Assembly: GCF_016765675.1 (NCBI RefSeq)
Contig: NZ_JAESWB010000247.1
Span: 62,001-126,000, forward strand
DNA length: 64,000 nucleotides
Direction: 5' to 3'
Origin: Neobacillus paridis
GTDB taxonomy: Bacteria > Bacillota > Bacilli > Bacillales > Cytobacillaceae
Positions 45,437 to 47,582 of the stretch are shown one piece after another. The translations under genes were made by a program, and so were the position numbers. The notes beneath the pieces were generated by a model. It was not told the DNA's origin, ran no database searches, and saw only the letters and a program-made list of their open reading frames with translations. Within the stretch, counting starts at the first letter, position 1. Every line of letters begins with the position of its first letter.

Positions 45437-45568
45437 TTTGTGTTCACTCCTTTTTTAGTTGTACATATTTAGCTTTCCGTCTAGAATAAAATCTATCCAC
45501 AAGAATAAATGGAAAATTCATGGATAAAGGTAAACGAATATATATTTTTGGACATTGGAGTGTTTATG

Positions 45569-45940
45569 ATGGTTTATTTATTTATTGGGATTGGCGGAAT
45601 GATCGGTAGTATTTTGCGCTATTTACTTTCCCACATTATTCCGCAAATATGGGGGGGAGATTTTCCTTGGGGAACACTAATCATTAATCTTTCAGGCTCT
45701 TTTTTTCTTGGTTGGATTACCAATAAATTGGTGGTTCTAAAGAAATTACCTCCACAGCTGTTAACGGCATTAACAACTGGAGTGGTCGGATCTTATACAA
45801 CCTTTTCCACCTTCTGCCTGGAAACTGTTCAGCTAATGGAAGCGGGAAAGTATTATCTTTCATTGCTGTACATAGTGCTCAGCCTGATGGGTGGATTGCT
45901 GTTCGTCCGCATTGGCTTAGAAATAGCCGAAAATAATTGA
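45569..45940 (+). CDS. crcB1: Fluoride channel subunit CrcB/Fluc 1
   Basis: Four-helix membrane protein (123 aa) exporting fluoride. Family motifs: GGMIGSILRYLLS, the pore Asn in TLIINLSGSFFLGW, and TTFSTFCLE. Paired with a second crcB 17 bases downstream, consistent with an antiparallel heterodimer. Start is ATG 45569 or the neighbouring ATG 45566, after TTGGAG. No fluoride riboswitch was recognised upstream. Confidence 0.93.
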   Translation: MVYLFIGIGGMIGSILRYLLSHIIPQIWGGDFPWGTLIINLSGSFFLGWITNKLVVLKKLPPQLLTALTTGVVGSYTTFSTFCLETVQLMEAGKYYLSLLYIVLSLMGGLLFVRIGLEIAENN

Positions 45941-45957
45941 AGGGAGCTGAATACTTG

Positions 45958-46311
45958 ATGACAGAAATTCTTTATGTTGCAATTGGCGGCTTCTTCGGCG
46001 CAATCCTTCGTTATGCGATCAGCAATCTGCTAAGGAGAAAAAACGGATTTCCTTTAGGAACGTTAGTGGTGAATTTATTAGGAGCATTTTTATTAGGGCT
46101 GCTGGCCGGTTTGGGTATTCATGGGTCCCAATATACACTTCTTGGTGTTGGGTTTATGGGCGCTTTTACCACCTTTTCTACCTTCATGCTTGAATCCGAA
46201 CAACTAAAGAAGACCGGCAAAAACAAGTTTTTCTATGTTTACATGGCCTGTAGTTTGCTACTGGGGATTGGTTTATTATCTTTCGGACTTTTTATCGGAT
46301 CAATAATGTAA
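45958..46311 (+). CDS. crcB2: Fluoride channel subunit CrcB/Fluc 2
   Basis: Second small subunit (117 aa): GGFFGAILRYAIS, TLVVNLLGAFLLG and TTFSTFMLE motifs mirror those of the first. AGGGAGCTGA ribosome site before ATG 45958; the longer frame from 45937 overlaps crcB1 and lacks a site. Closed by a bidirectional terminator shared with yidC. Confidence 0.93.
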   Translation: MTEILYVAIGGFFGAILRYAISNLLRRKNGFPLGTLVVNLLGAFLLGLLAGLGIHGSQYTLLGVGFMGAFTTFSTFMLESEQLKKTGKNKFFYVYMACSLLLGIGLLSFGLFIGSIM

Positions 46312-46349: not shown

Positions 46350-47135
46350 TTATTTATCTGCTTGCGGTACATTTTGTTTATTGTGATAAAGCCGATGACT
46401 AATGAACGTTTGAATGGTTAAGAAAGTACCCCCTACCACCCAATAAAGCGGCAGGGCAGCCGGTGCATTTAATGAGACCATAACAATCATTATTGGTGAT
46501 ATCAGCCCCATAAATTTCATTTGGTTCTGCTGTTCTTTCGTCATAGTCGATTGAGATACCCTAAATTGGAAGTAGTACACAAGTCCGGCAATGGCGGTAA
46601 GAACGATATCGGGGTGTCCCAGACTAAACCATAAGAATTTATGGGTAGCAATTTCATTTGAACTACGAATTGCATAATAGAAAGCTGTTAAAATCGGCAT
46701 TTGAATTAAAATTGGCAGACAGCCCATATTAAGCGGATTCACTCCATGCTTTTGATAAAGCCCCATCATTTCCGCTTGCAGCTCCTGCTTCTTCTGCGGG
46801 TCTTTTTCCAGCTTCATTTTCTTTTGGATAGCATCCATTTCCGGCTTTAAGGCTTCCATTTTAACCTTCATGTTCATTTGATTCTTATATTGTTTTAACA
46901 TTAATGGCATTAAAGCAAATCTGATGACCAGCGTGACGATAATAATCGCCAGTCCATAGTTTCCATTAAACAGATTAGCCGTTGATTTTATAATCAGCGA
47001 AAATGGTTCGACAAAATAATGATGAAAAAATCCTGTATTATTTCCGCCTTTTGGCTGTGACGAACAGGCTGATAGTAACACAGTTGTGGTCATTAAAAGA
47101 ACGATTGTAATAAGTGATGATTTTAGTTTTTTCAT
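46350..47135 (-). CDS. yidC: YidC/Oxa1 membrane insertase (YqjG/YidC2-like)
   Basis: Lipoprotein-type insertase of 261 aa (signal ending LLSAC, mature Cys about residue 24). Five membrane helices follow, with the substrate-groove Arg in TLVIRFALMPLM. It inserts membrane proteins alone or with Sec. Its ribosome site GGAGGAAATA is trapped in an 11-bp stem with codons of the upstream arrest-peptide gene, as B. subtilis yqjG is controlled by MifM. This makes it the inducible second insertase rather than the constitutive SpoIIIJ copy. Confidence 0.93.
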   Translation of the reverse strand: MKKLKSSLITIVLLMTTTVLLSACSSQPKGGNNTGFFHHYFVEPFSLIIKSTANLFNGNYGLAIIIVTLVIRFALMPLMLKQYKNQMNMKVKMEALKPEMDAIQKKMKLEKDPQKKQELQAEMMGLYQKHGVNPLNMGCLPILIQMPILTAFYYAIRSSNEIATHKFLWFSLGHPDIVLTAIAGLVYYFQFRVSQSTMTKEQQNQMKFMGLISPIMIVMVSLNAPAALPLYWVVGGTFLTIQTFISHRLYHNKQNVPQADK

Positions 47136-47186
47136 ATTTCCTCCTGAAAATGTTGGTTTAATTAGTAAGCAATAAGGAGGGAAATA
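47135..47186 (-). promoter_or_regulatory. Ribosome-site-sequestering hairpin of yidC
   Basis: On the minus strand TATTTCCCTCCT (47186-47175, inside the upstream gene) pairs with AGGAGGAAATA (47145-47135, the yidC Shine-Dalgarno through its start A): 11 base pairs with one bulged C and a 29-base loop. A ribosome paused just upstream would open the left arm and free the yidC site. Confidence 0.85.
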
Positions 47187-47455
47187 GGTTCTTCAGAATC
47201 ATCCTGAGGGCATTCTTTTCTGCGAATATATTTAATGATGCGAATAAGAATAATACTCCCATTAAAGCTGCTTGTTTTGTTGAAAAAAAATAATGGCCGG
47301 ATAATTTTTGTATTTTTCGCATATGAGGTATTTCCATTTAAAGTGTACTCAACACTCCACGTCCAAAGGTGTTTTAGAACGAGACCCAAGTAGATACTAA
47401 GATATAGGGCATTAAGGGTGTTTACATCAGAGTGATCGATGAGTATCTGAAACAA
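47162..47455 (-). CDS. mifM: MifM-like regulatory arrest peptide upstream of yidC
   Basis: A 97-codon gene starting with TTG 47455 behind a strong GAGGTGAT site (spacing 8). N-terminal hydrophobic segment NALYLSIYLGLVLKHLW (about residues 15-31) would engage the membrane. The C-terminus RIIKYIRRKECPQDDSEEP (72-90) resembles, from memory, the MifM stall region (R-I-x-x-W-I-R-K followed ~10 residues later by acidic D-E-E-D). It ends 26 bases before yidC and its PISLL codons form the arm masking the yidC ribosome site. Size (MifM is ~95 aa), position and RNA structure agree. Confidence 0.8.
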   Translation of the reverse strand: MFQILIDHSDVNTLNALYLSIYLGLVLKHLWTWSVEYTLNGNTSYAKNTKIIRPLFFFNKTSSFNGSIILIRIIKYIRRKECPQDDSEEPISLLIAY

Positions 47456-47549
47456 AAATTATCACCTCACTAGATAAGCGCAGGGCGCTGGACAAATTTT
47501 AAGCCAATGATAAGAGTATATAGGAGATTAAAAAAATAATCAATTTAAA

Positions 47550-47582
47550 AAGGACACCAATTTCGAAGGAAATTAGTGTCCG
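47550..47582 (-). terminator. Terminator after pflA
   Basis: GGACACTAATTTCC/GAAATTGGTGTCC-type stem with T5 on minus, overlapping the pflA stop. Confidence 0.8.

Follow-up and report, generated by a model that had tools for sequence, protein, structure and literature searches.

The closest described system is MifM of Bacillus subtilis, and leaders of this type have been catalogued in 592 Firmicutes genomes, as presented in PMC10987492. The residues R69, I70, W73, I74, M80 and N81, together with the DEED cluster, are described as important for MifM stalling in the account of PMC4423224. The same account ties two residues of the ribosomal protein uL22, F85 and M90, to MifM stalling, which M90 favors (PMC4423224). 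In the catalogue, as far as its account of MifM goes, the spacer between the transmembrane (TM) segment and the arrest region has a median of 54 residues, obtained by a TM predictor, and a strong negative charge within residues 70-100 serves to recognize the leaders (PMC10987492). According to the part of PMC7897499 that bears on this point, MifM carries no Pro at the A-site or at the P-site.

The locus described here lies on the minus strand of the window, that is, the whole stretch of 64,000 nucleotides analysed from Neobacillus paridis. It comprises a second yidC gene preceded by a short leader ORF. This leader is very likely of the mifM type: a shortage of insertase would stall the ribosome at an acidic cluster, leave the Shine-Dalgarno (SD) sequence of yidC2 free and allow YidC2 to be made. 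Its features are the following:

47552..47581, minus strand: terminator-like hairpin (13 pairs, then a run of T) belonging to the upstream gene (hairpin search)
47515..47543, minus strand: promoter-like site TTGATT-17-TATACT upstream of the leader, weak
47461..47468, minus strand: leader ribosome-binding site GAGGTGAT, read in the sequence
47162..47455, minus strand: leader ORF (probable mifM type), TTG start, 97 codons; frame intact in 60/61 genus genomes, pN/pS 0.32 over codons 2-89
47348..47431, minus strand: hydrophobic (transmembrane) segment, codons ~9-36, with D7 and D10 on its N-terminal side (hydropathy scan)
47216..47242, minus strand: RIIKYIRRK, codons 72-80, putative mid-tunnel part of the arrest region (genus conservation)
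47189..47203, minus strand: DDSEE acidic cluster, codons 85-89, predicted stall site (cluster end at 88/89 in 59/59)
47186..47188, minus strand: Pro, codon 90, after the acidic cluster (Pro in 57/58 at the alignment column)
47175..47186, minus strand: left (anti-SD) arm of the stem, from the third base of codon 90 into codon 94, bulged base at 47179 (fold, SD pairing in the genus, third-base constancy)
47135..47145, minus strand: right arm of the stem, from the yidC2 SD AGGAGG (47140-47145) through the A of the ATG (fold, SD pairing in the genus)
46350..47135, minus strand: yidC2, 261 aa, 60KD_IMP family, the gene presumed to be regulated (Pfam PF02096, E 6.9e-45)

The preliminary description had reported an ORF of 97 codons with a TTG start and a ribosome site, ending 26 bases ahead of yidC, and all of this reads back in the sequence; the 26 nt between the leader stop and the yidC ATG (at 47135) are positions 47136-47161. 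The letters and the numbering that it gave for RIIKYIRRK (72-80) and DDSEE (85-89) are correct, and the stem that it drew on the yidC SD is recovered with 11 pairs and one bulged base by folding 47110-47200. Its reading of the locus as a MifM-type switch on yidC2 agrees with the points that a sequence can test, namely the frame, the TM spacing, the cluster, the SD, YidC1 and the Met90 of uL22. Among the genus leaders the start codon is TTG in 58/59 and GTG in 1/59, and GAGGTG stands ahead of the 59 leaders, with GGGGTG instead in one (L004). Promoter-like sites number 4 in the region against 5.6 expected from shuffles. The terminator-like hairpin would set the leader-yidC2 unit apart from the upstream gene. 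Convergent to yidC2, at 45509-46311 on the plus strand, the window holds two overlapping small membrane protein ORFs of 143 and 124 aa, a pair that we take by eye to resemble CrcB-type fluoride channels.

In the proposed course of events, the N-terminal hydrophobic segment of the leader would be a substrate of the YidC insertases. With enough YidC activity, the emerging chain would be inserted and pulled, and the ribosome would move beyond the acidic cluster. Subsequently the mRNA would re-fold, codons 90-94 would pair with the yidC2 SD and the gene would be repressed. When YidC activity is low, the chain from R72 to K80 together with D85-E89 would arrest the ribosome while the cluster lies close to the peptidyl transferase centre. 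A ribosome of the usual footprint with E89 in the P-site covers, by geometry, the left arm of the stem; so placed, the stalled ribosome would keep the SD free and YidC2 would be made. The stall, its exact codon, the release by insertion and the induction of YidC2 are what we infer from the sequences.

Two frames are open in this part of the window, the 97-aa leader and a 59-aa ORF with an ATG start (47158-47337) that ends 22 nt before yidC, and one might suspect that the leader frame is open by chance or is not the one that a real gene uses here. The relatives refute this alternative, which is left with practically no probability, by the conservation of the frame in the genus and by its pN/pS. 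In the alignment of 58 genus leaders (a further one was dropped for an unread base), pN/pS over codons 2-89 is 0.32 in the claimed frame; the remaining frames give 0.89 and 1.84, and purifying selection is seen only in the claimed one. The other two frames hold at least three and at least four stops over codons 2-89 in 58/58 leaders. An other-frame ORF of at least 35 aa ending near yidC is absent in 29 other genus loci; L014 and L019 hold other-frame ORFs of 36-42 aa that end about 100 nt ahead of yidC. Conservation of the frame in close relatives, on which the preliminary description had let its own reading depend, is thus borne out.

After codon 89, pN/pS rises to 0.82, so the peptide matters as far as the acidic cluster and hardly beyond it, which is what a chain read by the ribosome ahead of the synthesis of its tail should show. 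By segment, the values are 0.21-0.28 for the N-terminal tail and the TM segment, 0.43 for residues 38-66 and 0.24-0.29 for residues 67-89. The acidic and hydrophobic segment conserved at the N-terminus, together with the conserved Lys inside it, would also suit a functional small membrane protein in an ordinary operon, the hairpin being a weak tuner of expression. This is nevertheless very improbable, since both ends of the leader are strongly conserved and the middle is weaker, the last residue of the cluster is number 88 or 89 in 59/59 genus leaders, at a fixed distance to the SD, and the leader is not found at 11 YidC1-type genes.

The distances around the cluster also bear on the switch. 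In the 59 genus loci, 51-61 nt (median 55, sd 2.2) separate the cluster end from the yidC start, which the leader stop precedes by 8-36 nt (median 26, sd 7.2). In the 39 leaders outside the genus that have all points located (one was without), the values are 42-65 nt (median 54, sd 4.5) and -131 to 42 nt (median 27, sd 42), respectively. The cluster was defined by the best span of five residues closest to residue 85, and the yidC start was sought within about 105 nt, a search that very different layouts would escape. The spread of the stop outside the genus is wide because nine leaders continue past the yidC start, overlapping it by 35-131 nt. These nine run in another frame than yidC and retain the usual cluster-to-start distance, and in them a ribosome that did not stall would translate across the yidC start. 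By these distances it is the predicted stall point that is held in place, not the end of the ORF.

Simple translational coupling, in which passing leader ribosomes would open the hairpin with no peptide-specific stall, accords with the conserved hairpin on the yidC2 SD and with the 9/39 leaders outside the genus that overrun the yidC start, where elongating ribosomes would cross the SD. It leaves unexplained, however, the conservation of the peptide at 67-89 followed by the immediate loss of constraint, as well as the fixed cluster-to-SD distance alongside a floating stop codon, and it is considered improbable beside peptide-specific stalling.

For the MifM-type reading, a hydropathy scan shows a TM or localization signal near the N-terminus, with more than 30 residues after it. 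The best 19-residue span is 9-27 (mean 1.14) in the present leader, against a genus median of 17-35 (1.59). By the same scan, the distance from the end of this span to the cluster end has a genus median of 54 residues (range 54-62) and is 59 residues in B. subtilis MifM; the hydrophobic segment of the present leader is weaker than the genus median and lies 62 residues from the cluster end. The spacer values are similar to those published, and the identical medians of 54 should not be over-read. DDSEE at 85-89 supplies the negative charge within residues 70-100, judged by the position of the cluster.

A stem hiding the SD is predicted just downstream of the putative stall site. In the window alone its stability is ordinary (z -0.33; 72/200 shuffles as stable), so the case rests on the relatives. 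At least five of the six SD bases are predicted to pair with a partner starting 6-11 nt past the cluster in 58/59 genus loci, and the same geometry arises in 166/2360 shuffles (7%) of the intervening DNA, 40 per locus. The mean pairing probability of the SD is 0.95 in the genus against 0.78 in shuffles, and 0.90 against 0.66 outside the genus; at seven YidC1-type genes it is 0.22-0.82, with 0.82 at one. SD pairing as such is less telling than the geometry of the partner. In codons 91, 92 and 93 the third position hardly varies (T in 58/58, C in 55/58 and C in 54/58), and the Ser right after the cluster is encoded by TCC in 77/80 cases against 60/377 earlier in the leaders. This constancy of third bases and the TCC bias indicate that the tail is constrained as RNA.

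The letters of the arrest region depart from those of B. subtilis. The MifM chain of 3j9w reads, at residues 68-89, HRITTWIRKVFRMNSPVNDEED. The preliminary description had noted a Tyr in place of the Trp and DDSEE in place of DEED. The second of these differences holds and the first probably does not, its register being off by four. In the alignment of the leaders (A1), the Trp column of the other genera falls on R72, and four leaders outside the genus hold Trp and Tyr/Phe together, four residues apart, so Y76 belongs to a different column from the Trp. The R72 register also retains the 13-residue spacing to the first acidic residue, and the pairing of Y76 with Trp73 was judged wrong on both counts. 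Against R72, profiles of the genus alone or of genus plus family set RIVKYIRR on RITTWIRK, with a three-residue insertion in MifM, in agreement with the preliminary description. The ungapped register, with R72 at the Trp73 of MifM, is probably the better supported, short of proof.

With that register, W73 corresponds to R72, I74 to I73, M80 to R79, N81 to K80, R69 to residue 68 and I70 to I69. The extent of the difference had accordingly been understated, for R69, W73, M80 and N81 are all replaced and Pro90 is added. In terms of the strict motif RIxxWIxxxxxMNxxxxDEED, I70, I74 and the acidic cluster are retained and the other four residues replaced. Residue 68 is F, I, L, M or Y in the genus and residue 79 is R in 52/58 and K in 6/58; R72 is kept in 57/58, I73 in 56/58, and L70, R78 and K80 in 58/58 each. 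The conservation argues that the segment R72-K80 is under strong selection, with residues unlike those of B. subtilis. All 59 genus leaders are of this R/H type, and the 40 leaders outside the genus comprise 20 with W-x4-hydrophobic-basic, three of the R type (in sister genera) and 17 with neither. A third leader type, with K-I-P-S or close to it about 10 residues before the cluster, is seen in six leaders, for example QRKIPSKSDKSHSDDEE. Since four of the six required mid-tunnel residues are replaced, stalling on the B. subtilis ribosome is not assured. Column 90 is Pro in 57/58 genus leaders with all four Pro codons in use, which indicates selection on the amino acid; a Pro immediately past the last acidic residue occurs in 54/59 genus leaders against 1/40 outside.

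Comparison by profile gives a graded picture. The A1 profile matches the MifM of 3j9w colinearly over nearly the full length at E 2.1e-7, a value that depends on one near-MifM bridge sequence (L092); without it the match is 10 bits, with E 6.2 at database size or about 3.5e-5 as a single planned comparison. Profiles of the genus alone and of genus plus family give 9 and 6 bits, respectively, and MifM is not listed up to E 10 for a second profile (A2), built from 28 leaders of the genus and family plus one other. MifM was not among the matches of a PDB search with the single leader sequence. The leader has no Pfam or NCBIfam match, 27 leader members searched against both gave two odd matches in one member each, and Rfam gave nothing at gathering score. 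No match was found in plasmids (DNA search), phages (protein search) or viral contigs. Position, architecture, spacing and stem thus speak for membership of the group more strongly than the letters do, and the Neobacillus leader most likely belongs among the known MifM-type leaders.

The genome of the window (4.6 Mb in 424 contigs) has two YidC genes (PF02096). The other one, YidC1, lies between rnpA and jag (rnpA-yidC-jag; 114, 258 and 207 aa, gene names by eye), as the primary SpoIIIJ does; the separate YidC1 of the SpoIIIJ type that goes with a MifM-type leader is thus present. YidC2 was sought in 120 genomes, the own one included, and matched in all 120. The DNA upstream of the best YidC place was compared in 109/120 (30 loci and 79/80 further regions, the remaining one having been misplaced, with three follow-ups). 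Leaders were called by an automatic rule and by hand; 10 cases that the rule missed, where the ORF overlapped yidC or the yidC start was misplaced, were added by eye and a false one (L067) was removed. G028 and G081 were added by hand to the leader set. A short uORF in the same direction, right ahead of yidC2, is found here and at the same place, intact, in 60 of the 61 genomes of the genus, which is Neobacillus, such genomes being non-independent samples; the total with an intact leader is 101/120, own genome included. Named genomes with the leader are Bacillus renqingensis, Neobacillus mesonae, N. cucumis, N. terrae and one MAG (five loci).

The 19 genomes without an intact leader comprise 15 with a single YidC, one with the leader deleted (G034), one with it interrupted (G065), one in which none was seen (G111) and one unexamined (G099). 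The upstream DNA of six of the 15 single-YidC genomes was checked, with no leader in any, and the other nine were scored leaderless from the number of YidC genes alone. As a control, one rule, which asks for an acidic cluster in an open frame at 40-66 nt ahead of the start, found 0/11 at YidC1-type genes, which have an rnpA-like ORF upstream, or a YidD-like one in two cases (names by eye), and 98/98 at leader-bearing YidC2 loci, as expected of loci chosen by their leader.

Some loci depart from this arrangement. In G034 (L164; contig C44, ~3569, reverse strand), a Neobacillus, the leader, the stem and the yidC2 start are lost, and the leader ribosome site and first three codons are fused in frame to yidC2 from about residue 39. 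In G065 (L069), the N-terminal half of the leader and the C-terminal motif lie in different frames, possibly by a sequencing error. In G028 (L110), which is outside the counts of 59, the leader is intact and 61% identical to that of the window, and the yidC2 behind it is in pieces with stops. The single YidC gene detected in G082 is preceded by a MifM-type leader (L082), and may be a sole insertase under a switch of this type.

The ribosome itself can be compared at uL22, which in the own genome has F85 and M90. Position 90 was assigned in 116/120 genomes by DNA pattern, with Met in 101 and Gln in 15, and two more Met were added by reading; uL22 was not found in G056 and G061. The leader is absent or broken in 6/15 Gln90 against 11/100 Met90 genomes (115 genomes; p 0.0096, kinship ignored) and, within the family and among two-YidC genomes, in 2/5 against 0/64 (p 0.004, kinship ignored). 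Outside the family, two-YidC genomes give 0/6 against 1/26, that is, no association, kinship again being ignored. The association of Gln90 with leader loss is a weak lead. Both G034 and G065 have Gln90, and two other genomes with Gln90 (G014 and G026) retain a leader, with EDDEE in place of DDSEE.

A more specific reading, somewhat doubtful and put forward tentatively, is that the stall has been re-wired in Neobacillus. The Arg-rich R72-I-x-x-Y-I-R-R-K80 would replace the contacts of R69/I70, W73/I74 and M80/N81, and the cluster with Pro90 would concentrate the stall on a single site, with E89 in the P-site and Pro-tRNA in the A-site, rather than on four codons in a row; this stall would depend in its own way on the tip of uL22 and perhaps on EF-P as well. 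The literature consulted on MifM holds no account that was found of Pro90, of the R-type motif, of this extent of motif replacement or of the floating stop; the supplementary tables of PMC10987492, which possibly list such leaders, were outside that coverage. If stalling is true, the leader would be a natural variant of MifM in which most of the 'essential' mid-tunnel residues are changed and the geometry and logic are retained, and it would separate the parts that arrest needs (acidic residues at the peptidyl transferase centre, and spacing) from replaceable mid-tunnel contacts. The genus offers natural experiments, in the leader-deleted genome and in those with an altered uL22 position 90. 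The locus is ordinary in kind, yet it makes the drift of an arrest peptide with retained function directly testable.

Several other arrest leaders can be set beside this one. ApcA of the actinobacteria is not known to have an acidic cluster. It resembles the present leader in its place before a second yidC, as described in PMC7897499, and differs by its R-A-P-G motif (PMC10987492, in the part concerned). SecM and VemP share the principle that a protein handled by the machinery arrests the ribosome translating it and so exposes a downstream SD, as outlined in PMC10987492. They differ in that they monitor Sec and control secA or secDF2, with unrelated arrest sequences. CliM (uC_KYxIW) of the Clostridia is likewise an arrest leader ahead of yidC that monitors YidC, but belongs to another bacterial class and has a C-terminal K-Y-x-I-W motif, which its description contrasts with the acidic residues of MifM (PMC13183943, as far as that description goes). 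From B. subtilis MifM the present leader differs in keeping just two of the six required residues, I70 and I74, in having DDxEE and Pro90 where MifM has DEED and Ala90, and in a direct sequence similarity that is weak. On the other hand, it shares with MifM (the yidC2/yqjG leader) a uORF of about 95 codons ahead of the second yidC, an N-terminal hydrophobic segment and a C-terminal acidic cluster at about 85-89. It also shares a similar TM-to-arrest spacer, a separate YidC1, the M90 of uL22 and a yidC2 SD placed in a stem, which in MifM is opened by the stalled ribosome according to the accounts in PMC6037786 and PMC4423224.
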